DNA from: Alphaproteobacteria bacterium
GTDB taxonomy: Bacteria > Pseudomonadota > Alphaproteobacteria > UBA9219
NCBI GenBank assembly: GCA_028866275.1
Contig: JAGWIK010000017.1
Coordinates: forward strand, 1 to 40,368
Direction: 5' to 3'
Length of the DNA stretch: 40,368 bases
Numbering within the stretch: position 1 is the first letter of the stretch; each line of letters opens with the position of its first letter. Below, in pieces: positions 2,354-21,960 of this stretch. The position numbers and the translations under genes are program-made. The notes under the pieces are model-generated. The model saw nothing but the letters and a program-made list of their open reading frames with translations, did not search any database and was not told the DNA's origin.

Positions 2354-2499
2354 ATAAATCCTCCTAGCAACGCGCAAAATAAGTACCCAACGCAACAGAT
2401 TGCCAAGATCGGAATACCGACAAGGACGAAATATGAAACAGCAGCTATGAGAAGCATGGTATTTTTAAAAGTCGCCTTTTGTGTTGTGCGTTCGGTCAT
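2341..2499 (-). CDS. 52-aa membrane peptide
   Basis: A short reading frame, MTERTTQKATFKNT followed by about 35 hydrophobic residues. One or two membrane spans are expected, running through LLIAAVSYFVLVGIPILAI and then a CCVGYLFCALLGGFIW stretch. The ATG (2497-2499) forms an ATGA overlap with the methyltransferase stop codon and its 3' end overlaps the zinc-peptide start, so it is translationally coupled on both sides. Function is unknown; a phage membrane peptide of the exclusion or lysis-modifying kind is possible but not shown. Confidence 0.6.
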   Translation of the reverse strand: MTERTTQKATFKNTMLLIAAVSYFVLVGIPILAICCVGYLFCALLGGFIWLI

Positions 2500-3356
2500 G
2501 CCATTGTCTCCCTGATTGCTTGCGCCGTCTTAATATCGTGGTCATCAACGCTAGCCGTGCGATGGTCGCCTTCGCGCTTGGCGGAGTGATATTGGACAAT
2601 AAATGGCTTTGGCGCGTCGATCACATAGCGGAAGATACCCTTAGCGATGCGACGCAGTGTGGCCTCGGCCAGCGGTCGCTTGCGCTCGAAGATCGACGGA
2701 CACGGGATCGACCAGTCGATGCAATCCGCCGCCGTGCGATATGGGATAAGTCCGGGGCCGTGCGTCGGCGCGGGCCAGACGATGGGCTTGCCGTCGCAGC
2801 GCGCAATAAGGAACAGGCGTTTGCGAATGGTTGGCGCGCCGTAATCACAGGCGCGCAACTCGCGGTATTCGATCTTGTAGCCAAGTTTCTTGAGTTCCCC
2901 GCACCAGCGTCGGAAGGTGAAGCCTTTGCGAAGCGGGCACGGGATGAGCTTTCCGTCCTCGGTGCTGGTGAGCGGTCCCCAATCCTTAAATTCCTCGACA
3001 TTTTCGAGCATGATGACAGCGGGGCGCACCAACTTCGCCCAATGCACGACGACCCATGCCAGGTCGCGGATGTGCTTTTCGACGGGCTTGCCGCCCTTGG
3101 CCTTGCTGAAATGCTTGCAGTCGGGCGAGAACCACGCCAGCGAGACAGGGCGCCCTTTTGTCACATCGCGCGGATCGGCGCGCCAGACGGACTGGCATAG
3201 ATGCTCCGCGCCCGGGTGGTTGGCCGTATGCATCGCCACGGCTTCATCATCGTGATTAATGGCAATGTCGATAGAACAGCCAAGGCCCATTTCGATGCCC
3301 GTGGAAGCGCCGCCGCCACCCGCGAAATTGTCGACTATCAATCCATTGATTGTCAT
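2496..3356 (-). CDS. DNA cytosine-5 methyltransferase, C-terminally short
   Basis: A 286-aa C5 methyltransferase. Motif I is DNFAGGGGAS (about residues 9-18, SAM binding), motif IV is SPDC with the catalytic Cys80, motif VI is ENVEEF (118-123), and motif VIII is IRKRLFLIA (177-185). A target-recognition region follows. The protein then ends after TASVDD with a short unrelated-looking tail, so motifs IX and X, which normally complete the fold, are not seen. Start at 3356 is chosen for its GGAGAA site and ATGA overlap with the upstream MT-A70 gene. It may protect phage DNA from host restriction, if active. Confidence 0.85.
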   Translation of the reverse strand: MTINGLIVDNFAGGGGASTGIEMGLGCSIDIAINHDDEAVAMHTANHPGAEHLCQSVWRADPRDVTKGRPVSLAWFSPDCKHFSKAKGGKPVEKHIRDLAWVVVHWAKLVRPAVIMLENVEEFKDWGPLTSTEDGKLIPCPLRKGFTFRRWCGELKKLGYKIEYRELRACDYGAPTIRKRLFLIARCDGKPIVWPAPTHGPGLIPYRTAADCIDWSIPCPSIFERKRPLAEATLRRIAKGIFRYVIDAPKPFIVQYHSAKREGDHRTASVDDHDIKTAQAIRETMA

Positions 3357-3919
3357 GAAAATTTCTCCGTTTCGTTGCCCCACGCGTCCCATCCACGCGC
3401 CGCTTCGCGCGCGAACAGTTCAAGATATGGCCCGTCGAACAAGGCTTCGACATCGCGGCGCATCTGGTCGGGTTTGCGTGAATGTTCGCGGATGGGCGCG
3501 GCGATAAGGTTACGCACGTTGCGCGCTTTTTGTTGCGGCCTGCCGATGGTGCCCAGCAGGAAAAATTCGGCGGCGCTGCGGTAACAATAACCGGTCCCGA
3601 AGGCCCATGCCCGGCCCGTTTTGCTTTGTTTGGCCCATGCGCCCGCGCTTTTAAAAGCAAACCCCCATGCGCGCATGGTGTCGACGGCCTGCGGCAGCAT
3701 CGGCGCCGTTGCCCACATGATCAGCGCGCAGTCGCCGCGGGCCAGTTGCGACACCGGCAACGCCATGATGTCGGACAATGTCATGCATCCGTAATGGCGC
3801 TGCGGGCTTTTCCCTTCTCCCTTTTGGCTGCGCACATCGAAACGCCATGGCGGATCGGCCAGAATCGCGCCGTAATGCAACGGCTTTAAGGCTGAAAAGG
3901 GGTCGGCGCGACGTATCAT
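3353..3919 (-). CDS. MT-A70 family adenine N6-methyltransferase
   Basis: A 188-aa protein with the DPPW catalytic motif at residues 22-25, an MWATAPMLPQAVDTMRAWGF segment and a FFLLGTIGRPQ beta strand, as in phage MT-A70 adenine methyltransferases. It would methylate DNA (the family can also act on RNA) at adenine N6 using SAM. The C terminus (REHSRKPDQ, then FARE) carries the SRKP/LFAR pattern usual for the family. It is coupled by ATGA overlaps to genes on both sides and sits beside the C5 enzyme, so both probably serve anti-restriction or regulation. Confidence 0.88.
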   Translation of the reverse strand: MIRRADPFSALKPLHYGAILADPPWRFDVRSQKGEGKSPQRHYGCMTLSDIMALPVSQLARGDCALIMWATAPMLPQAVDTMRAWGFAFKSAGAWAKQSKTGRAWAFGTGYCYRSAAEFFLLGTIGRPQQKARNVRNLIAAPIREHSRKPDQMRRDVEALFDGPYLELFAREAARGWDAWGNETEKFS

Positions 3920-5273: not shown

Positions 5274-5474
5274 TCAGATCGCCCTTAACTGCGTGGCTGC
5301 GGCGCCGAATGCCGCCCATGCGATGTTGCGATCCCGCCATCCTTTGGTCGGATGTAAAACCCTGACGCGATCGACGCCCGTTGCGGTCGTATATTTTTCA
5401 GACGGCAATTCAGATGTTTTGTTCCATTTGCGTCTGTTGGCTCGATCCGCTGGTATTTCTTTAATTACATGCAT
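5274..5474 (-). CDS. Hypothetical phage protein (66 aa)
   Basis: Not recognised. A basic protein starting MHVIKEIPAD and ending AAATQLRAI. AAGGAA lies about 8 bp before the ATG at 5474. A longer in-frame version up to 5789 would consist of Thr-Ala repeats from the adjacent hexanucleotide array and is not preferred. Confidence 0.55.
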   Translation of the reverse strand: MHVIKEIPADRANRRKWNKTSELPSEKYTTATGVDRVRVLHPTKGWRDRNIAWAAFGAAATQLRAI

Positions 5475-5553
5475 CGTTAATTCCTTTTTTGGTTCCCCGC
5501 GCCCCTTCCGCAGGCGAAAGCGTTCGCGTTCCGCCTGCGTTTCAGGGCATCCA

Positions 5554-5880
5554 TTAATAGCCGTAGCCGTAGCCGTCGCCGTAGCCGTCGCCGTAGCCGT
5601 AGCCGTAGCCGTCGCCGTAGCCGTCGCCGTCGCCGTAGCCGTCGCCGTAGCCGTAGCCGTAGCCGTAGCCGTAGCCGTAGCCGTCGCCGTAGCCGTCGCC
5701 GTCGCCGTAGCCGTCGCCGTAGCCGTAGCCGTAGCCGTCGCCGTCGCCGTCGCCGTCGCCGTAGCCGTCGCCGTAGATGAATGCCTCACCGTCTGTTCCC
5801 ATGGGGGTTGCGGCGAACGATGTCGCCGTCAGCGCGCCGGAATCAGGGGCGGTATTCTCTTGGGCTTGATCAGGCAGCAT
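5554..5880 (-). CDS. Gly-Tyr/Gly-Asp dipeptide repeat protein
   Basis: A 108-aa protein. The first third is an ordinary Ala/Thr-rich segment from MLPDQAQENT to GEAFI; the rest is 36 uninterrupted YG or DG dipeptides and a final Tyr before the stop. The array contains a perfect 12-unit internal duplication. The ATG at 5880 overlaps the end of the upstream gene by 11 bp, as expected in this operon. Short phage proteins with GYGDG repeats are familiar to me from other temperate phages, but no function is known. The single variable base makes Tyr or Asp in this frame yet is silent in two other open frames, so the frame is likely but not certain. Confidence 0.6.
   Translation of the reverse strand: MLPDQAQENTAPDSGALTATSFAATPMGTDGEAFIYGDGYGDGDGDGDGYGYGYGDGYGDGDGYGDGYGYGYGYGYGYGDGYGDGDGYGDGYGYGYGDGYGDGYGYGY
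5560..5775. repeat. Hexanucleotide array GCCGTA/GCCGTC, 36 units
   Basis: Thirty-six tandem hexamers, each GCCGTA or GCCGTC on the plus strand, with no other variation. Units at 5590-5661 and 5662-5733 carry the same 12-unit order of A and C variants, so they form a perfect 72-bp tandem duplication. The array is most of the YG/DG repeat gene and should be prone to slippage. Confidence 0.97.
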
Positions 5881-9471: not shown

Positions 9472-9816
9472 ATGGTCAAGAAAGTGAATTTGGAAGGCGT
9501 GATTGAAGGGCTGACGCAGGAAATGGCCGAACAGATGATGGTGGCGGCCGAAACGCGTAAAATGCCCATTATCAATCTGGCCGGCATTAACGTGGCCGGC
9601 GTGGATCCCATGAAGCTGGGCACATTCAATGAACGCGAGATGGCCAGCGTCAAAGCGTTGATATGTTATGCCGCCGCCAATAATAACTTAACCGAAGACG
9701 CGCTGCGCGCCATCGTCGCCGACCGGTTTGAACGTATTCTGGTCGAAGATATCCCATCGGCGCATTATGAACGGGTTATCGAATATCTGGTCGATTTTAA
9801 AAATTCGGTCAATTAA
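9472..9816 (+). CDS. Hypothetical protein (114 aa)
   Basis: Not recognised. A mostly helical protein starting MVKKVNLEGVIEGLTQEMAE, with an IINLAGINVAGVDPMKLG middle and a C-terminal HYERVIEYLVDFKNS helix. AGGGGA lies 5 bp before the ATG. It is a single gene with its own AT-rich upstream region (about 180 bp). Its last codons overlap the end of the convergent CI-like gene by 8 bp. It may be lysogen-expressed cargo. Confidence 0.6.
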   Translation: MVKKVNLEGVIEGLTQEMAEQMMVAAETRKMPIINLAGINVAGVDPMKLGTFNEREMASVKALICYAAANNNLTEDALRAIVADRFERILVEDIPSAHYERVIEYLVDFKNSVN

Positions 9817-10258
9817 CCCTGTCTATTTCATAGTCAAGAAGCCGCTGTGTTTCAATTTCCAACGATTTCGGCGGTTTTTTGCCTGTGGCGCCCGGCTTGA
9901 TATCGGGCAGCTTGCCGGACAGGGCGGAACGATAAACAACGGTGCCGATGCCTGCCACAACGCCTTCCGGCAATTCGGGGTGCGCGCGGGCGTTTTTAAC
10001 GCATAGATCAATAACCCAGTATAGCAGGCGGTCTGTTGCTGGCTCGGGCGTTTTTTCAGACGAATCGTCAATAAGATCGATTGGTTTTACACCTAATGCG
10101 TCGGCCAGACGTACCATCCATTGTTGAGTTAATCGGCGTTCTCCATTTTCAAGACGGCGGATTTGAACATGCGTTGTCCCCACGCGTGCTGCAACCTGCT
10201 CCAGCGTCATTTTCTTGGATTTGCGTATTTTCCGCGCATTATTTGCAAGTTTTTCCAT
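9809..10258 (-). CDS. CI-like phage repressor, XRE family
   Basis: A 149-aa protein with an N-terminal XRE HTH (about residues 8-62, KIRKSKKMTLEQVAARVGTT then an LENGERRL recognition/turn segment). No S24 peptidase domain is seen, so it would not be cleaved by the LexA-style SOS route. The C terminus is unrecognised. It is divergent from the Cro-like gene across an 11-bp perfect palindrome, the layout of a lysogeny switch. The ATG at 10258 (weak GGGG before it) is preferred; upstream in-frame starts at 10273, 10300 and 10372 would enter or cross the operator. Confidence 0.8.
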   Translation of the reverse strand: MEKLANNARKIRKSKKMTLEQVAARVGTTHVQIRRLENGERRLTQQWMVRLADALGVKPIDLIDDSSEKTPEPATDRLLYWVIDLCVKNARAHPELPEGVVAGIGTVVYRSALSGKLPDIKPGATGKKPPKSLEIETQRLLDYEIDRVN

Positions 10259-10302
10259 GCCCCATTGCACCATTTTGGTGTCGAGCAGGGTAGTTCCCAT
10301 AA

Positions 10303-10342
10303 TGGAACAATTTTGGGGTTGCAAATTGTTCCAATCTGGTTC
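10303..10342. promoter_or_regulatory. CI/Cro operator with perfect 11-bp palindrome
   Basis: TGGAACAATTT (10303-10313) and AAATTGTTCCA (10323-10333) form a perfect inverted repeat with a 9-bp spacer. The right half continues as TGTTCCAATCTGGTTC (10327-10342), matching 14 of 16 bases of the operator copy at 7230-7245. It lies between the divergent repressor and Cro-like genes. Confidence 0.75.
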
Positions 10343-10347
10343 ATTAT
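10319..10347 (+). promoter_or_regulatory. Candidate rightward (PR-like) promoter
   Basis: TTGCAA (10319-10324), 17 bp, CATTAT (10342-10347). The operator right half occupies the spacer. A start 7 bp after the -10 falls at 10354, the A of the Cro-like ATG, and no Shine-Dalgarno sequence is visible, so the message may be leaderless. Confidence 0.5.
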
Positions 10348-10353
10348 CCCGGT

Positions 10354-10599
10354 ATGAAAGATACGACATCAAAAATGCATCCTCTCAAGAATTGGCGCCT
10401 AAGCAAAGGCTATACCCAAGAACAGGCCGGATCTGAATTAGGGATAAGCCGTGTCACATTTCACCGGTTTGAGAATGGCGAACGCATTCCAGACCGTAAT
10501 GACATGCCCCGCGTTTGTTCCCATACCGGCCTAAGCCCTAACGACTTCTATTCCTTTTCCTCCGCCAGCATGGGCGACGAATCCGGGGCTGTCGCATGA
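10354..10599 (+). CDS. Cro-like XRE regulator
   Basis: An 81-aa protein that is little more than an XRE HTH: LKNWRLSKGYTQEQAGSELG followed by a SRVTFHRFENGERIP recognition helix and loop (about residues 11-62). It is the first gene of the rightward early operon and divergent from the CI-like gene, so a Cro role (turning down the repressor in lytic growth) is likely. A second ATG at 10375 is possible; neither has a ribosome binding site. Confidence 0.75.
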   Translation: MKDTTSKMHPLKNWRLSKGYTQEQAGSELGISRVTFHRFENGERIPDRNDMPRVCSHTGLSPNDFYSFSSASMGDESGAVA

Positions 10600-10708
10600 C
10601 TTTGACGCGGCCGCCACCCCACCGATGTTCGAAACCGCCTGACTGAATCTGTGCCGTCTGTTGCCTTTGTTTCATGCCCCATCTTCCCTCCTTTTATCCG
10701 GCAGAACC

Positions 10709-11236
10709 ATGACAAAATCCCGCCCCGATACCAAGAATTTGCCTTCCCAATCATCGGCCCCCGCGGTCAACCTGACAACCGCCGCCGTGCGTGATGAACT
10801 GACGCTGATCATGCGGTCATATATGGGGTATGGCCAAGCCTATAGCATCGCGGCCGTCGCCGATGCCGTCGATATCGACCAACGCACGATGAAATCTTAC
10901 GCTGACGGCGACAGTTCGCCGACGCTTGCCACCATTCTGCGCCTGTTTCGCTTTCTGGGGCCGGAATTTGCCAATCGCGTTCTGGCCATCGCGGGATTCG
11001 GCGGATGCATTCGCGTCACGCCCGAAGATGTTTCCGCGTATCAGCTGAATTCCGATGCGTCCGCGCTGGTTGGCGCTTTGGGACATGCCTTCCGGCACGG
11101 TCATTTTGACAATAAGTCTGAACCAGAAGTTATCGATGATGTGCGCAAACTGGCCGTGACCGTTCAGGAATGGCTGGCCGAACGCGATCAGAAACCCAGT
11201 ACCGCCCCCAAAACCGTGAAGCCCAGACGCCGTTGA
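10709..11236 (+). CDS. HTH regulator in the CII position
   Basis: A 175-aa protein with an HTH of XRE/CII type near residues 45-80 (SIAAVADAVDIDQRTMKSYA, then DGDSSPTLATILRLFRFLG). The flanking N terminus is low-complexity and the C terminus is Lys/Arg/Pro-rich. Its place after the Cro-like gene suggests a CII-like early activator or another early regulator; the sequence alone does not decide. The ATG at 10709 is chosen over 10661 because the first 16 residues of the longer form look non-coding. Confidence 0.6.
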   Translation: MTKSRPDTKNLPSQSSAPAVNLTTAAVRDELTLIMRSYMGYGQAYSIAAVADAVDIDQRTMKSYADGDSSPTLATILRLFRFLGPEFANRVLAIAGFGGCIRVTPEDVSAYQLNSDASALVGALGHAFRHGHFDNKSEPEVIDDVRKLAVTVQEWLAERDQKPSTAPKTVKPRRR

Positions 11237-11279: not shown

Positions 11280-11726
11280 ATGTTGGGTAAAAGCTGGTCA
11301 AGACAGGAAAAAGAAAAAGTCCGCACCCTGCGCGCGCAGGGCAAAACCGCGTCGCAGATAGGCGTGGAATTGGGGCGCACACGCAATGCCGTCATTGGCG
11401 TTTTGAACCGCATGGGCGTGGCATCGGGCGAACGGGCAACGGTTAAAAAAACGCCAGCGCCGCGCAAACGCCGTGACCGCGTTGTGTCTATACCGCCGAA
11501 AGAAGCTAAACCGTTTGTGCCGGCGGCAGACGTGTTTAAGGGTGTCGGCATTTCGTTGATGGATGCGGGCGCCCCCCATTGTCGTTGGCCCTATGACGGC
11601 AAGGGGCGCGACGGTAACCCGCGTTGCTGTGGTGCGGCGCGGGCTGCTGCATCCATTTATTGCGTTGCGCACGCGCAGCGCGCCTATACCGCGAAAAAAT
11701 CCCCGGAAATGGCGGAGGCGGCATGA
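11280..11726 (+). CDS. GcrA-like cell-cycle regulator
   Basis: A 148-aa protein with the GcrA layout. The N-terminal DNA-binding helices (WSRQEKEKVRTLRAQGKTAS, then LGRTRNAVIGVLNRMG) match the family core. A linker rich in Lys/Arg/Pro follows. The C-terminal sigma70-contact part shows the Cys/His/Trp pattern: CRWPYD (Cys101), CC at 116-117, and YCVAH (Cys128, His131), then AY. In alphaproteobacteria GcrA is a sigma70 cofactor acting at CcrM-methylated GANTC promoters. A phage copy could redirect host transcription. ATG 11280 follows GTGGGG. It is coupled to the next gene by an ATGA overlap. Confidence 0.85.
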   Translation: MLGKSWSRQEKEKVRTLRAQGKTASQIGVELGRTRNAVIGVLNRMGVASGERATVKKTPAPRKRRDRVVSIPPKEAKPFVPAADVFKGVGISLMDAGAPHCRWPYDGKGRDGNPRCCGAARAAASIYCVAHAQRAYTAKKSPEMAEAA

Positions 11727-12424
11727 AGGCGATTATCCAAACGGATGGCGGCCGGCAGTTGACCATAGATGGGGATTGGCGCGAATTCGCGGCTGTATTT
11801 CGCATTTTGTTAAAAGACGATGCAGATAGCGTTGTCGCTGAATGGGCCGATTGGCGGAAGGGTATTTTTGCGGCAGCCAAGGAAAAGGGACAATATCCGG
11901 ATGACGGGCATCGTTCTGCGTCGCCACTGGGGGCTAGTGGTGATGGCTGCGAGATGCAGAACTTGAAAGCGACCCCCGCGGATGCTCACCCATCGTCAGT
12001 TACGCCAGCACCGCAAGTTTTGCCGCCCCGCCCAGAAAAGCAGACGCGAAAACAACACAGCGATGAAGAAATTTTAAGCATAATTGCGCGCAAGGAAAAG
12101 GGCGAAAGCTATGCGCAGATCGCCGCGGATTACGATGCCGACGCCAAACAAATTTACATGCGCGTTTTCCATTTCAAGAAACGTCATCCTGACAAAGTCT
12201 ATGCCGCCAAGAAAAAGGCCGCAGAAGATTATGTTGCGACGCCGGTGCCGCGCGATATTCAGGCCGTTATTGATTGGTGCCGCGGTCACGGCATGAAAAT
12301 TGGCGTTTTGAATGGGCGCATTTTTTGCGATGGCGTCGATTATAATCCGCAACAGATTGTCGATATTGCCAACAAGGAAAGAATACGCGCGCGTCTTCCC
12401 ATTTTTAAATTGATGGGGGCTTAA
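11723..12424 (+). CDS. Hypothetical protein with HTH-like segment
   Basis: A 233-aa protein, not assigned to a family. The first 60 residues start MKAIIQTDGGRQLTIDG; a Pro/Ala-rich linker follows. Residues about 125-155 (SDEEILSIIARKEKGESYAQ, then IAADYDADAKQIYMRVFHF) look like an HTH of GcrA/Myb-like type. The C-terminal 60 residues (ending LPIFKLMGA) are unrecognised. GGAGG lies 7 bp before the ATG. It sits between the GcrA-like and CtrA-like genes, so a regulatory role is plausible. Confidence 0.6.
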   Translation: MKAIIQTDGGRQLTIDGDWREFAAVFRILLKDDADSVVAEWADWRKGIFAAAKEKGQYPDDGHRSASPLGASGDGCEMQNLKATPADAHPSSVTPAPQVLPPRPEKQTRKQHSDEEILSIIARKEKGESYAQIAADYDADAKQIYMRVFHFKKRHPDKVYAAKKKAAEDYVATPVPRDIQAVIDWCRGHGMKIGVLNGRIFCDGVDYNPQQIVDIANKERIRARLPIFKLMGA

Positions 12425-12829
12425 ATGTCGCATCCGGTCAATTCGACACTATCCCTTTTGGAACGTATTCGTTTTTTGGAAGATGCGCTGGATGAAGCGC
12501 AGGAACGGATTCGCGAACTGGAAAAGGAAAAATTTGGTATCGGGTGGATGTCGCCCGGCTGTTTAAAATTAACGCCCTATGAAGAACGGATTATAAGCGC
12601 GTTAATGGTGCGGGACGCGGCATCCAAGGACAATCTGATGGCCGCCGTTTATGCGGACCGTTTTGAGAAAGAAGAACCTAGCATCAAGATTATCGACGTT
12701 TTTGTATGCAAGCTTCGTCAGAAATTATCGCGGTTCGATATCTCCATCGAAACCATATGGGGACGCGGCTATAAATTAACACCCGAAGCGAAACAGCGCA
12801 TAAATGATTTATCGCGGGTTGCCGCATGA
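12425..12829 (+). CDS. CtrA-type winged-helix DNA-binding protein without receiver domain
   Basis: A 134-aa protein. Residues 11-36 are a predicted coiled coil (LLERIRFLEDALDEAQERIR). Residues 47-119 are an OmpR/PhoB winged helix close in pattern to the CtrA DNA-binding domain: EPSIKIIDVFVCKLRQKL (about 84-101) and IETIWGRGYKL (108-118). Host CtrA carries an N-terminal receiver with a phospho-Asp; this protein has none, so it would escape phosphorelay control. CtrA controls replication and cell-cycle genes. It directly precedes the primase and overlaps it by 4 bp. Confidence 0.85.
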   Translation: MSHPVNSTLSLLERIRFLEDALDEAQERIRELEKEKFGIGWMSPGCLKLTPYEERIISALMVRDAASKDNLMAAVYADRFEKEEPSIKIIDVFVCKLRQKLSRFDISIETIWGRGYKLTPEAKQRINDLSRVAA

Positions 12830-13800
12830 CGGACGGCACACAGCGCATTGCGCCCGCGGAAATAGAACGGGTTAAGACCGGCGTTGATCTGGCCGCCATT
12901 GTCGGTGCCAAGATCAAATTGCAACGTCGGGGAAGCGAATGGGTCGGGTTGTGTCCATTTCACAGCGAGGGAACCCCCAGTTTTTATGTGCTGCCGAAAA
13001 AACATATTTGTCATTGTTTTGGCTGTTCGACGACCGTCGATGTTTTTGAATTTCTGAAACGCACCGAGGGTCTAAGTTTTGTCGAGGCCTATGCCAAGTT
13101 AAACGGATCCGTCGTTGAAACCAAAAAGCGGTTCGTGTCGGCCAGTGCCGCCGATAATCAGGTCAAGGATGATGCCGCCGATCAACGCCGCCGTATCGAT
13201 AAAGCGCGGGCGATATGGGACGAATCCGGCCCTGCGCTGCGCACGCCTGTCGAAACTTATCTGAAATCACGAGGTATTCACGGCGTCGCTTTGCCGCCGA
13301 CGATTCGCTTTCACCCATCGCTTTATCACAAGGATACACGGCGCAATTATCCTGCCATGGTCGCGGCCGTATGGGACAATCAACGCCGCCTGGTTGGGGT
13401 GCATCGAACCTATTTAAGCCCCGACGGGCGCAGCAAGGCCGGAACCGGGGATGACAAGCTGGCGCTCGGCCTGTGCAAGGGCGCGCATATCTGGCTGGGC
13501 ATGCCGACAAACGGGCGTCTGGCGATCGCGGAAGGCATCGAGACGGCGTTGAGCGTCAAGATGGCGCGGCCAGATTTATGTTTATGGACATCGCTATGGC
13601 TGGGCAATCTCGGCGCGCCAGTTCCGGCCTCCATCACCGAAATCATTATCTGCGCCGACAATGACAGCAAGGATCCCGCCAAGGCGGCGGCTGATATCAA
13701 TATGGCCGTGGCGCAATTGTCGCGGCCGGGGCGAACCGTGCGCGTCGCATGGCCGGATAAGGGCAAGGATTTTAACGATATGGTGAAGCGCAATGGGTGA
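12826..13800 (+). CDS. Phage DNA primase (CHC2 zinc finger plus Toprim)
   Basis: A 324-aa primase that would make RNA primers for phage replication. The zinc-binding CHC2 domain is residues 15-90, with Cys43, His46, Cys64 and Cys67 (CPFH and CFGC). The Toprim domain follows, with the catalytic AEGIETALS (Glu236) and metal-binding ADND (278-280). It overlaps the CtrA-like gene by 4 bp and the helicase gene by 8 bp, making one replication unit. Confidence 0.92.
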   Translation: MTDGTQRIAPAEIERVKTGVDLAAIVGAKIKLQRRGSEWVGLCPFHSEGTPSFYVLPKKHICHCFGCSTTVDVFEFLKRTEGLSFVEAYAKLNGSVVETKKRFVSASAADNQVKDDAADQRRRIDKARAIWDESGPALRTPVETYLKSRGIHGVALPPTIRFHPSLYHKDTRRNYPAMVAAVWDNQRRLVGVHRTYLSPDGRSKAGTGDDKLALGLCKGAHIWLGMPTNGRLAIAEGIETALSVKMARPDLCLWTSLWLGNLGAPVPASITEIIICADNDSKDPAKAAADINMAVAQLSRPGRTVRVAWPDKGKDFNDMVKRNG

Positions 13801-15580
13801 GTGTTCTGATCTGCCGGACTATGAAGGCGCCGTACAAAATCCTATTGCCAAAGCGTTGGATGATGCCGAAGTCGCGCATCCGCGTCCCTTGGGTCCGGAA
13901 AATGAACAGCCATGCGATATATTGCCATTGGGGCATGCGGGTGGTCGGTATTATTTTATCAGCCGCGACGGAGAGTTGCGCGAATACAGCGCGCGGGAAT
14001 TGATACGTCTGAACATCGCCAGCCTGTTCGGCGGCAATACGTCATGGCTGTGTGACAATTTTCCGTCTTTCAGTAAAAAAGGTGAAAAGATTCATGGGGC
14101 ATTCAATGGCAATCTGTCCGCCGAATGGTTGATGCGGCAATGCCATGTGGCGGGATTGTTCGATGCGGCCACGCCCTCGCGACGGTTGGGCGTCTGGCGA
14201 TCGCGCGACGATGTCGTCGCACATTTCGGGCGCAATATCTGGTATCGCGGTCATAAGCAACCCGCAGGATGCATCGTGAATGGCGCGATTTATCCGTCTT
14301 GCAGCCCGGTCAGGGAACCCGATTTTGCCAACCCGGCCGACCGATATGAATGCGACCGGTTGCGCCAGAATTTCAACGCATGGAATTTCACGCAGGATTT
14401 CGACGCCGATTTGTTATTCGGTTTTCTGGGTGCGGCGTTATTGGGCGGTTTTCCCAAATGGCGCGTGCACGGCCTGATCAGCGGCGAACGCGGCAGCGGC
14501 AAAACCACTATCGGCGAATATGTCATGAACGCCATCGGGGCGCAGGGTACCAGCCTGAACGAATATACCGAAGCGGGCGTGCGGCAATCGTTGACCAATG
14601 AATCGCGTGTGTTGCATCTGGATGAAGGCGAAAGCGGCGGCGAAGAACAGGCCCACCGCATGGCCAAGGTGATCGGCCTGCTGCGTAAAATGTCGGACGG
14701 CGTCGGCGCGCGCATCGTGCGCGGCACATCGGGCGGCACGGCGCAGAATTCAACGGTGACCGGATGCGTATTGCTGACCGCGATCAATCCCCCGCCGCTG
14801 CAGCCACAGGACCGCAGCCGTATTTTAAGCGTGGGCATTGAAAAGGCGGGGCGCGCCACGCAGGATGACATTCGCCTGATGTGCCAATATGCCGCCGATA
14901 TTTCCCCGCGGTTGCGTGCCCGTGCCCTTATCGGGGCTAATAGGTTCGCGGATACATTCCGGCTGTATCATGCCTGTCTTCTGGCACATGGATGCGATGC
15001 GCGGCAGGCGGATCTGTTTGCCACGTTGTGCGCCGGCCGTTCGTTGCTGCTGCATGATGAAATTCCGGCGCGGGACATTGCGGAACGTTTTGTCGCCGAT
15101 TTGCGGTTCCGGTTGAGCCTGATCATGATCGACGATAGCGAAGCGGGCGATGGCCAGTCATGCCTGAACCGCTTGCTGGACGCCGAATGTGCCGCTATCC
15201 GCGATGGCATCAAACGATCTATAGGGCAATTGGTATCGGACGCCATCGGCACCTTGGATAGCCCTGAAAATGACAAGCTGGTGCCTTTGGGACTGCGCAT
15301 CCTTGATGTCAAGGGCACGCATGGCATGGAACGTGTCCTGTTCGTCGCCAATGACCATTTAGGGCTGCGCCGCATCTTTCATAACACCCCATGGGCCGAC
15401 GGCAATTGGCGGTCGTCCTTGCGGCGTTTGGCGGGGGTTATCGTGTCACCCAAACCTGTGGGCGTCGGGCGCAAGGCGCGCGGCGTGTTGATACCGGCAT
15501 CCTTGCTGCCGGCGCGCGATAACGACCGTGAGGTTGATCTTACGCCCCATCCACCTGACCCCGCGCCCGGAGGCTTTTAA
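13793..15580 (+). CDS. Replication ATPase/helicase
   Basis: A 595-aa protein with a Walker A at GERGSGKTT (231-239) and a Walker B at VLHLDEGE (273-280). The ATPase core is followed by a RIVRGTSGGTAQNS segment and a RSRILSVGIE arginine-finger-like stretch, as in phage helicases of the superfamily 3/DUF927-like kind. It probably unwinds DNA at the replication fork with the adjacent primase. The N-terminal 190 residues are unassigned. It overlaps the primase gene by 8 bp (ATG 13793). The exact helicase subfamily is not settled. Confidence 0.8.
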   Translation: MGECSDLPDYEGAVQNPIAKALDDAEVAHPRPLGPENEQPCDILPLGHAGGRYYFISRDGELREYSARELIRLNIASLFGGNTSWLCDNFPSFSKKGEKIHGAFNGNLSAEWLMRQCHVAGLFDAATPSRRLGVWRSRDDVVAHFGRNIWYRGHKQPAGCIVNGAIYPSCSPVREPDFANPADRYECDRLRQNFNAWNFTQDFDADLLFGFLGAALLGGFPKWRVHGLISGERGSGKTTIGEYVMNAIGAQGTSLNEYTEAGVRQSLTNESRVLHLDEGESGGEEQAHRMAKVIGLLRKMSDGVGARIVRGTSGGTAQNSTVTGCVLLTAINPPPLQPQDRSRILSVGIEKAGRATQDDIRLMCQYAADISPRLRARALIGANRFADTFRLYHACLLAHGCDARQADLFATLCAGRSLLLHDEIPARDIAERFVADLRFRLSLIMIDDSEAGDGQSCLNRLLDAECAAIRDGIKRSIGQLVSDAIGTLDSPENDKLVPLGLRILDVKGTHGMERVLFVANDHLGLRRIFHNTPWADGNWRSSLRRLAGVIVSPKPVGVGRKARGVLIPASLLPARDNDREVDLTPHPPDPAPGGF

Positions 15581-15855
15581 TGATTTTCGGCACTTATGTG
15601 GAACGGTACGGTGGACGGAAACACCGTTCCTTTTGGTGTACCGTTCCAATTACGTCATTCATTTTGCTTTGTAATTCGACGTTGGAACGGTTGAAAAATA
15701 AAAGCCGTCCATATATGCGCGCGCGCCTGCGCATAGGCATGGACACAATTGACCGTTCTTTCTTCTCTTCTTCTTAAAAAATTCAGGAAAAAGAAAAGGG
15801 TAGGTGGAACGGTACGGTTCAAGGAACGAAAAATAGCAAATCAGGAGTGTACCCA
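15581..15855. repeat. Gap with repeated GAACGGT elements: possible operator or replication origin
   Basis: About 275 bp without a convincing gene. The core GAACGGT occurs six times in both orientations: 15599-15613 (TGGAACGGTACGGTG), 15622-15630, 15638-15648, 15683-15692, 15752-15758 and 15805-15820. The first and third copies form a perfect 11-bp inverted repeat TGGAACGGTAC/GTACCGTTCCA. The position after the replication genes and before the candidate late regulator fits an iteron origin or a regulator-binding cluster. Confidence 0.6.
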
Positions 15856-20270: not shown

Positions 20271-21914
20271 ATGGAAAACCCGGTCAAATTTCTCGGCCCG
20301 GACGGCGCTCCTATGCAGCGACGGCCATCGCGTGCCTCCATGCTGGCCGGCGGTCGGGAGGGCTGGGGTGGTGTTCCTTATGACGCCGCGGATAATTACG
20401 GCGAACACATGGCCGCGTGGCAATCGCTGCTATGGTCGCCGGATACAGAACTTAACCCCTATCGTGACCGCATCGTTTCGCGTGTCCGCGATATGGTGCG
20501 CAACGATGGATGGGCGTCGGGCGCAGTCACGCGGATTCTTGATAATGTCGTTGGCGCGAATTTCCGTCCTATTTCAAAACCTGATTACCGCACCCTGGCG
20601 CATGTGTCTGGCAATCCGGCATTCGACGCCGAATGGGCGAATGAATATAAAAATGCGGTCGAAGCGAATTGGCGAATCTGGGCCAACGATCCGGGTCGTT
20701 ATTGCGACACCGCGCGCGCGCTTAACGTGGCGCAGATCATGCGTCTTGGCTTTCGCCACGAACTGATCGAAGGCGACGCCCTCGCGCGCGTGGCATGGAT
20801 GCCCGAACGTGTCGGCAAGGGGCGCGCACGTTATGCAACCGCGATCGAAGTTATCGACCCCGACCGCCTGTCGAATCCTCAACTGCGATTTGATCAACAA
20901 ACGATGCGCGGCGGCGTTCAGGTTGATGAAAACGGTGCGGCCGTCGGTTATTGGATCCGTGAAGCCCATCAAGGCGACTGGTTCAATGCGGCGAAAAGCG
21001 TGACATGGGAATTCGAACCGCGTGAAACGGAATGGGGCCGTCCGGTCATCATTCATCACTTTGAACATGAACGCGCGGCGCAACATCGCGGCGGCGCCGG
21101 AATTCTGACGCCGGTACTGCAACGGCTTAAAATGCTGATCAAATATGACGGTACAGAACTGGACGCCGCCATTATCAACGCCATCTTCGCGGCCTATATC
21201 GAAAGCCCTTACGACCCGCAGATGGTGCAAGATGCCTTGGGGGATTCGGATTCTGTCGGCGCCTATCAGAATATGCGACAGGATTTTCATCATGAACGGC
21301 GTATTACGCTGGGTGGATCGCGTGTTTTAAATCTTTTCCCTGGTGAAAAGATGAACGCGGTTTCGGCCACGCGGCCGGCCAATAATTTCCGTGATTTCGA
21401 AGGCGCGATGTTGCGCAATGTCGCGTCCGGCATCGGTATATCGGCACAGCAATTGTCGAATGACTGGTCTGATGTCAACTATTCGTCGGCGCGCGCCGCG
21501 CTGCTGGAATCGTGGAAGACCATGACGCGCCGCCGCGACAATTTCGCGCACGGTTTTGCCGACCCGATCTTTTGCGCATGGCTCGAAGAATCGATGGATG
21601 TCGACAATCTTCCGCTGCCCGCCGGCGCGCCGGATTACGCCGATTTTCGGGGTGCCTATGCGCGCTGTCGCTGGATGGGGCCGGGCAGGGGATGGATCGA
21701 TCCGGTCGATGAAAAAGCTGGCGCCATCCTTGGCATCGATGCCGCGCTATCGACGCTGGAAGCCGAATGTGCCGAACAAGGTCTGGAAGTCGAGGAAGTT
21801 CTCGACCAGCGCGCGCGCGAACTGAAAATGTTCGCCGATCGCGGCATTCCGTTGCCGTCTTGGGCGAATGCGGAAAAAGCGATGGATGCCGCGCGTAAAC
21901 CGGATGCGGAATAA
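20271..21914 (+). CDS. Phage portal protein, lambda gpB family
   Basis: A 547-aa portal that forms the ring through which DNA is packaged. The typical start region (NPYRDRIVSRVRDMVRNDGW, then ASGAVTRILDNVVGANFRP) and the GISAQQLSNDWSDVNYSSAR motif of lambda-type portals are present. The first ATG is 20271; an upstream in-frame TTG at 20265 is unlikely. No frameshift or gap is seen. Confidence 0.92.
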   Translation: MENPVKFLGPDGAPMQRRPSRASMLAGGREGWGGVPYDAADNYGEHMAAWQSLLWSPDTELNPYRDRIVSRVRDMVRNDGWASGAVTRILDNVVGANFRPISKPDYRTLAHVSGNPAFDAEWANEYKNAVEANWRIWANDPGRYCDTARALNVAQIMRLGFRHELIEGDALARVAWMPERVGKGRARYATAIEVIDPDRLSNPQLRFDQQTMRGGVQVDENGAAVGYWIREAHQGDWFNAAKSVTWEFEPRETEWGRPVIIHHFEHERAAQHRGGAGILTPVLQRLKMLIKYDGTELDAAIINAIFAAYIESPYDPQMVQDALGDSDSVGAYQNMRQDFHHERRITLGGSRVLNLFPGEKMNAVSATRPANNFRDFEGAMLRNVASGIGISAQQLSNDWSDVNYSSARAALLESWKTMTRRRDNFAHGFADPIFCAWLEESMDVDNLPLPAGAPDYADFRGAYARCRWMGPGRGWIDPVDEKAGAILGIDAALSTLEAECAEQGLEVEEVLDQRARELKMFADRGIPLPSWANAEKAMDAARKPDAE

Positions 21915-21960
21915 TCAATACTTAACCATCCATGCGTTTCGCCTAAACAGGTAGGTTCTC

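Follow-up and report, generated by a model that had tools for sequence, protein, structure and literature searches.

A temperate alphaproteobacterial phage carrying a GcrA-like gene and a gene for a receiver-less CtrA-type winged helix ahead of its primase

Phage-borne GcrA and CtrA relatives

Several phages are known to carry a homologue of GcrA, which in Caulobacter acts as a sigma70 cofactor at methylated promoters. Such homologues were described in the phiCbK-like Caulobacter phages (gp222, reported as pfam07750) and in Agrobacterium phage Atu_ph08 (gp5), and a boost to host replication genes was proposed for them (PMC3556154, PMC6630229). gcrA is also carried by Sinorhizobium phiLM21-like prophages (PMC12429752) and by a coral-associated phage (PMC11309003). 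We describe here a phage contig of 40,368 bases, belonging to a 2.19 Mb alphaproteobacterial assembly and analysed over its whole length (the window), which likewise bears a GcrA-like gene (11280-11726, + strand). In contrast to the described cases, this gene lies in the early operon of a temperate phage, beside a gene for a CtrA-type protein (12425-12829, +). No phage CtrA-type gene is described in the available text on the phiCbK-like phages and Atu_ph08, and CtrA is unmentioned in the main texts on the phiLM21-like prophages and the coral-associated phage.

A CtrA winged helix without receiver has been annotated in Roseobacter phage RDJL Phi 1 (gp37) and its kin. This protein has the motif KIIDVFVCK, as does the one in the window, but it differs by its N-terminus and by its position two genes before an exonuclease gene, and RDJL Phi 1 gave no PF07750 match. 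In addition, host CtrA has been reported to repress or activate the promoters of three phages, with lytic deferment (PMC9437464). Phage timing would be tied to CtrA in both situations; there host CtrA acts on phage promoters, whereas here the CtrA-type protein is phage-borne. Phage GcrA, the annotation of a receiver-less phage CtrA and the control of phage genes by host CtrA are already known. In the largely open-access literature, with subscription journals mostly uncovered, we met no account of a phage carrying the two genes together or of the coiled-coil family presented below, nor any report that Asp51 is lost among phage CtrA-type proteins at large.

The GcrA-like and CtrA-type proteins of the early operon

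The 148-amino-acid product of 11280-11726 matched PF07750 (E 2.6e-16, 60.8 bits for a cut-off of 26.9) over residues 5-141, against positions 2-150 of the model, and a six-frame search gave 56.3 bits for the same family on this frame. Alignment to the solved GcrA 7ye1 covered residues 5-142 (E 4.4e-9). The chain of the DNA-binding domain (5yiu) matched residues 4-47 (E 0.0011) and that of the sigma-interacting domain (5yix) residues 80-142 (E 0.0012). By these alignments, both working halves of GcrA are present in the phage protein, with a helix-turn-helix (HTH) at about residues 5-47 and a sigma-interacting domain at about 80-142. This corresponds to the layout described for GcrA, namely an N-terminal DNA-binding domain, a linker and a C-terminal sigma-interacting domain (PMC7403470). 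Caulobacter GcrA shares both domains with the phage protein; its linker counts 62 residues, against about 32 here.

The phage protein is, judging from its sequence, a member of the GcrA family and not a recent copy of the host gene. Identity with host GcrA is 30%, and the score on the GcrA orthologue model of NCBIfam (NF050816) is 45.2 bits, far below the equivalog cut-off of 280, which leaves it outside the orthologues. A contrary result came from a codon-usage gene caller, a crude one, which skipped this frame because it gave the middle gene an earlier start, a TTG at 11624. This omission is outweighed by the Pfam match across both halves. An earlier note, drawn up from the letters of this DNA alone, had named a GcrA-like protein at this place, and the profile score together with the match of both domains to solved GcrA bears it out. 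The host genome encodes its own GcrA and its own CtrA, which mark the assembly as alphaproteobacterial, and a RAMA-domain protein, presumably CcrM; among 14 control genomes, a RAMA domain was found in Caulobacter only.

The 134-amino-acid product of 12425-12829 matched Trans_reg_C (PF00486; E 5.9e-10, 39.5 bits, cut-off 26.2) over residues 47-118. CtrA was its best NCBIfam model (NF045991, 45.2 bits), followed by TctD (33.8); the equivalog cut-off of NF045991 (350) is passed by host CtrA with 424.8 bits and not by the phage protein. Apart from the protein itself, the best match in the host genome was host CtrA (49% identity over 73 residues, E 3.7e-10), the runner-up having an E of 0.05. The two proteins share the type of winged helix and the recognition helix. 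The region of the latter, placed at residues 88-104 (12686-12736, +) by alignment with host CtrA and by the structural model, starts with KIIDVFVCKLR, which is identical in host CtrA and differs in two other host regulators of the same fold. OmpR/PhoB-type DNA-binding domains came out on top of a structural search (Z 10.1, root-mean-square deviation 2.5, 79 aligned); solved CtrA was not among the 50 matches listed, an absence which is not evidential. The relation to CtrA proposed in the earlier note is supported by the Pfam score and by the ranking of CtrA both among NCBIfam models and in the host genome.

Host CtrA possesses a receiver with Asp51. No receiver domain, and hence no Asp51, was detected in the phage protein, either in the Pfam scan or in the predicted structure, in agreement with the claim that the receiver is missing. 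AlphaFold2, run with a 17-row alignment of relatives including the window (A6), predicted a helix at residues 11-37 (12455-12535, +) followed by the winged helix, with a mean predicted local distance difference test (pLDDT) of 89.5. In this helix, L11, I15, L18, L22, A25, I29 and L32 follow a 4-3 spacing (heptad shuffle test, p 0.009), and it looks as if a coiled-coil-like helix occupies the place of the receiver. The protein ends with -VAA. The C-terminal Ala-Ala of CtrA is part of its ClpXP signal; these two residues terminate 8 of the 17 proteins of coiled-coil type and 7 of the 17 CtrA controls that were parsed, compared with 25 of 405 genes, the sequences being related.

Both genes belong to a rightward series (11280-11726, 11723-12424, 12425-12829, 12826-13800 and 13793-15580) whose junctions abut or overlap by 4 or 8 bases. 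As claimed, a primase follows the CtrA-type gene directly (12826-13800, +; CHC2 zinc finger, DUF7146 and Toprim_3; phrog_510, E 1.2e-59). The last gene (13793-15580, +) encodes a phage replication protein of 595 amino acids, P-loop ATPase-like, matching phrog_21086 (unknown function, E 2.4e-109) and phrog_35358 (DNA primase, E 3.3e-33); its Pfam AAA matches are weak and a helicase assignment would come from position alone. A short way upstream of the series stand the divergent genes for a CI-like HTH repressor (9809-10372, − strand; HTH_3, 48.1 bits; PHROG transcriptional repressor) and a Cro-like HTH protein (10354-10599, +; HTH_31, 43.1 bits; HTH_3, 35 bits), with which the term early operon agrees. 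An additional HTH-like regulator may be encoded 5' of the gcrA-like gene (10709-11236, +), with weak matches over 10661-11236 (HTH_3, E 0.075; PHROG repressor, E 0.025).

Between the two genes of interest, 11723-12424 (+) encodes a protein of 233 amino acids for which no Pfam family was found at E 1 and no relative in phage or viral-contig collections at the sensitivity applied. Among weak PHROG matches it had a transcriptional regulator (E 0.0019). Single-sequence structure prediction gave a three-helix HTH-like region at about residues 111-160 (pLDDT 86-92, mean over the protein 60.8). HTH regulators were retrieved as structural matches with Z up to 6.4, and the top-ranked one was a pre-60S ribosomal factor (Z 7.4). 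The predicted helices and the weak regulator match agree with the third HTH-like protein of the earlier note.

PHROG matches in the window comprise an integrase, large terminase, portal, head protease, major head protein, tail sheath, tape measure and baseplate. Because of the integrase and of these structural and tail proteins, the window is a temperate contractile-tailed phage. Elsewhere in it, 2496-3919 (−) holds two neighbouring methyltransferase-like genes, one of Dcm type scoring below cut-off and the other with a motif which we take to be of the DPPW type, and 5274-5789 (−) is an open reading frame with a long Thr-Ala dipeptide repeat and no PHROG match at E 1e-5.

Relatives, co-occurrence and residue 51

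The layout of a short heptad helix followed by a winged helix, with no receiver, was recovered at 18 distinct loci, the window included, from IMG/VR, where a third search added none, and from named bacterial genomes (Amorphus, Shinella, Mesorhizobium and Bartonella metagenome-assembled genomes). One phage present under two handles (L077 and L112) was counted once and a probable distant member (L103) was left out. The loci of named genomes are probably prophages, to judge by adjacent genes, for instance that for GemA at L110 and that for a primase at L114. The recognition helix of CtrA type is kept in the window and in most rows of A6, partly owing to search design, since two IMG/VR searches used peptides containing IIDVFVC; a genome search free of this peptide did find members with changed recognition helices. 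Asparagine occurs in the helix core in 10 of the 17 rows, and a core Asn is typical of parallel two-stranded coils. In a tree of the 85-residue domain, these 17 proteins fell on one side of a branch with a support of 89/83, not starred and based on few columns. Other receiver-less phage proteins fall on the same side, so that the coiled-coil set does not stand out as a clade of its own. In three loci (L067:1239-1992, L111:7592-8309 and L068:2666-3773) two such genes lie in tandem, one partner having a changed recognition helix; the products may possibly form heterodimers. L068 contains a third gene with a visual resemblance to GcrA, which was not counted (no Pfam match, BLASTP E 0.01).

At E 1e-12, no GcrA-like or CtrA-type relatives besides the window's own were found in 33 genomes of the host's order. 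Among 385 genomes of the class, 19 matched the coiled-coil profile at E 1e-20, and none contained a further receiver-less CtrA-type protein, because the frames other than that of the window have 231-281 amino acids (except L049, 175 and cut).

In 13 of the 17 relatives a DUF6551/ParB-like motif is present no more than 1.5 kb upstream, and a 14th has a variant of it. DUF6551 was confirmed in both loci scanned, in one of them also by a ParB-like PHROG. Such a gene stands directly or closely upstream in L110 (7175-8393), where the GemA gene comes next, in L114 (6430-8351) and in other loci of the family. The window has no DUF6551/ParB-like gene upstream and carries the GcrA-like and HTH-like genes instead. 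Among the 12 coiled-coil records of IMG/VR, none had PF07750 above cut-off and two had it below, and the window GcrA-like protein gave no match in the fetched coiled-coil loci; five genomes with such loci have one full-length GcrA each. Given this and the usual ParB/DUF6551-like neighbour, the GcrA pair is not a conserved unit in the coiled-coil family, and GcrA as its regular partner is ruled out by the IMG/VR count. The paired receiver-less arrangement before a primase, which the earlier note had singled out, does not hold as a family trait.

The pair of genes does recur in other phages. Of 40 phage records selected by CtrA, 8 had PF07750 above cut-off (7 of 24 and 1 of 16; 11 of 40 at E 0.001), a proportion to be read without matched background, terminase and integrase searches having given 0 and 1 contigs. 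The second batch comprised 18 records, from which two GcrA-selected ones (G450 and W01) were set aside. The GcrA and CtrA-type genes are 1.3 to 6.4 kb apart in seven of the eight (G014 excluded) and on opposite strands in G022 and G024. Four of the eight (L016-L018 and L022) represent one lineage; L015 has a similar GcrA, and its CtrA domain groups elsewhere on the tree. In these five records GcrA lies upstream of a CtrA with a decayed receiver, and L085 has a primase/helicase about 6 kb further on. Only in the window is GcrA closely paired with a coiled-coil CtrA-type gene, at 699 bases and with one gene between. Among GenBank phages, tblastn gave 31 records for the window CtrA-type protein, 31 for host GcrA and 2 for the window GcrA-like protein, and no accession was common to the first list and either GcrA list. 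A profile search, applied to 3 of the 31 CtrA records, added one phage with both, Rhizobium phage RHph_X2_30, whose GcrA-like protein (L105, L106; W04:7577-8176) shows two DNA-binding-like halves before one sigma-interacting domain. The earlier note had proposed to score such co-occurrence next to primases: the pair recurs in other lineages, and the arrangement of the window before a primase is untypical of the coiled-coil family.

We then compared position 51 (host CtrA numbering), which could be scored in 8 of 37 IMG/VR CtrA-type loci. None had Asp: the residue was Phe in L015, Ile in L016, L018 and L022, Ala in L019, Glu in L020 and L029, and Gly in L024. Asp51 was present in 14 of 16 controls, which are the best profile matches in class-wide genomes, of unproven orthology (Fisher test, p 6e-5, kinship ignored). 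L016, L018 and L022 are near-copies, so that the eight receivers represent about six lineages, and in decayed receivers the residue opposite position 51 depends on the alignment. The count leaves out L017, whose alignment starts at residue 63, L103, where it was spurious, the cut L049 and the unparsed L060. Most of the remaining IMG/VR proteins have no receiver across the sequence at hand, L013 and L026 being cut at the contig end and L027 and L028 being fragments. Both controls without Asp51, L058 (Glu) and L065 (Ala), are CtrA-like and come from genomes of a single family (f29). The two Glu51 proteins (L089:9554-10396, the same as L020, and L099:9560-10330, the same as L029) have receivers above the Pfam cut-off of 30.2 (88.8 and 85.9 bits); L089 neighbours a DNA polymerase and an exonuclease gene, and L099 a methyltransferase and a head protein gene. 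The pattern suggests three routes along which phage CtrA-type proteins have been uncoupled from the phosphorelay, namely loss of the receiver, decay of the receiver and change of Asp51 to Glu. The claim that the protein of the window lies beyond phosphorelay control is supported and fits this pattern.

DNA sites and possible roles of the pair

Our preferred reading, which we put forward tentatively and somewhat short of probable, is that the early operon makes two host-type, clock-independent cell-cycle transcription factors, the GcrA-like and the CtrA-type protein, ahead of the replication proteins. Like GcrA in S phase, the first of them would bring host RNA polymerase to certain promoters, which are probably methylated at GANTC. 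The second, the CtrA-type protein, would attach to CtrA boxes by its host-like recognition helix and would pair through its N-terminal coiled coil rather than through a phosphorylated receiver. It would be active once made, the CckA-ChpT signal not being required, and the phage would set, rather than await, the transcription state best for its own replication proteins. The gene identities, the domain loss, the operon order, the common recognition helix and the predicted helix, all observed, speak for this reading, from which we infer dimerisation, the DNA targets and the effect of the phage pair on the host. A link between the phosphorylation of CtrA and phage infection is known from Rhodobacter phage Jorvik, for which neither D51A nor D51E CtrA fully restored infection, Glu at this position being termed phospho-mimetic (PMC10589892). 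By analogy, this result suggests that the phosphorylation state of CtrA matters to a phage, which we count in favour of the same reading. We also count for it the host's own GcrA, CtrA and RAMA-domain protein, the 17 other loci of like layout with their frequent core Asn, the missing Asp51 in phage receivers, the CtrA-selected phage records that have GcrA above cut-off, and the action of host CtrA on promoters of three phages.

Several observations weigh against it. Sites of the form TTAA-N7-TTAA with at most one mismatch are not in excess in the phage (11 against 8.1 expected), nor are those of TTAACCAT at the same tolerance (23 against 23.3). The best CtrA-box-like site, ATAATCAATACTTAACCAT (21911-21929, +), has one mismatch to TTAAN7TTAACCAT and lies in the gap between the portal and head protease genes; it is the single good one in the phage, and one as good was found in 7 of 100 shuffles. 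GANTC occurs 68 times for 151 expected (observed/expected 0.45). Six host stretches gave 0.30-0.59, by which the depletion was rejected as a feature of the phage, and the counts show no sign of special GcrA targets. With no excess of CtrA boxes, and with GANTC depleted to the same degree in phage and host, the proteins would act on host promoters or else recognise an altered site. The suggestion that the module connects phage replication with the host cell cycle, or overrides this cycle, finds no support in these sites. The Jorvik D51E result also implies, by the same analogy, that a constitutive CtrA need not suffice. In the heptad shuffle test, the 16 relatives gave p from 0.0095 to 0.80, weak for most single members. 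The recognition helix is altered in Bartonella loci and in tandem partners, so that the family as a whole is not tied to CtrA boxes. PF07750 above cut-off is lacking in the coiled-coil records of IMG/VR, and the pair is no conserved unit there. A weaker CtrA-like box, with two mismatches, was noticed at position 3330 of L112, at the CI/Cro divide.

These data leave room for other explanations. Appreciably less probable than the preferred reading, though still to be reckoned with, is that the CtrA winged helix and the GcrA-like protein serve the phage's own promoters and leave the host cycle untouched. The coiled-coil family is found in phages that differ from one another, as a rule behind a ParB/DUF6551-like gene and in L110 before the GemA gene, its recognition helix diverges in some members, and the one good CtrA-like box is located within the phage structural region, all of which would fit such autonomous regulators. 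However, a recognition helix kept in the window and most A6 rows would be odd if host sites were irrelevant, even with a partly biased search, and a single good box equalled by 7% of the shuffles is a poor set of phage targets. Alternatively, and improbably in our opinion, at least one of the three DNA-binding proteins would mark the phage origin and help to load the replication proteins. The gap after gene 13793-15580 contains an iteron-like cluster of four exact copies of TGGAACGGT (15599-15813; three +, one −), with no further exact copy in the window; this cluster is a possible candidate for an origin or an operator. Its position right after the replication genes, the direct abutment of the regulator genes to those of the primase and the replication ATPase, and phage MW202785, in which a GcrA-like frame overlaps the start of a gene annotated replisome organizer, would all suit a role at the origin. 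Yet TGGAACGGT resembles neither a CtrA nor a GANTC site, and a relative of the window primase was found near the coiled-coil gene in just three loci, about 2 kb downstream in L079 and in L114 and about 4.5 kb upstream in L071, dissimilar primases escaping this search. There is also a slim chance that the winged helix, having no receiver, acts as a competitor of host CtrA for its boxes and does not activate from them, which would free the host origin or CtrA-repressed phage genes. Loss of the receiver with an intact recognition helix is what a blocker of this kind would show, and at least one phage has promoters that host CtrA represses (PMC9437464). But the predicted dimerising helix points to activity, as do, indirectly since they are other proteins, the Asp51-to-Glu forms of other phages.

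If the preferred reading of two clock-independent regulators is extended to the other phages, alphaproteobacterial phages would have repeatedly freed CtrA by the three routes above, several lineages adding a GcrA-like cofactor. The GcrA and CtrA programmes take turns in the host; the phage would then run both together, S-phase transcription and a constitutive CtrA-like repressor holding the host origin, so as to direct replication capacity to itself; we regard this extension as unlikely at present. If true, these phages would represent a natural counterpart of the laboratory CtrA alleles, whether constitutive or Asp51-to-Glu, and would show which parts of CtrA are required for action without the phosphorelay. 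They would also provide ready tools to uncouple the CtrA and GcrA programmes in Caulobacter, and would suggest that the selected trait is the escape from the phosphorelay rather than the mere carriage of a homologue.

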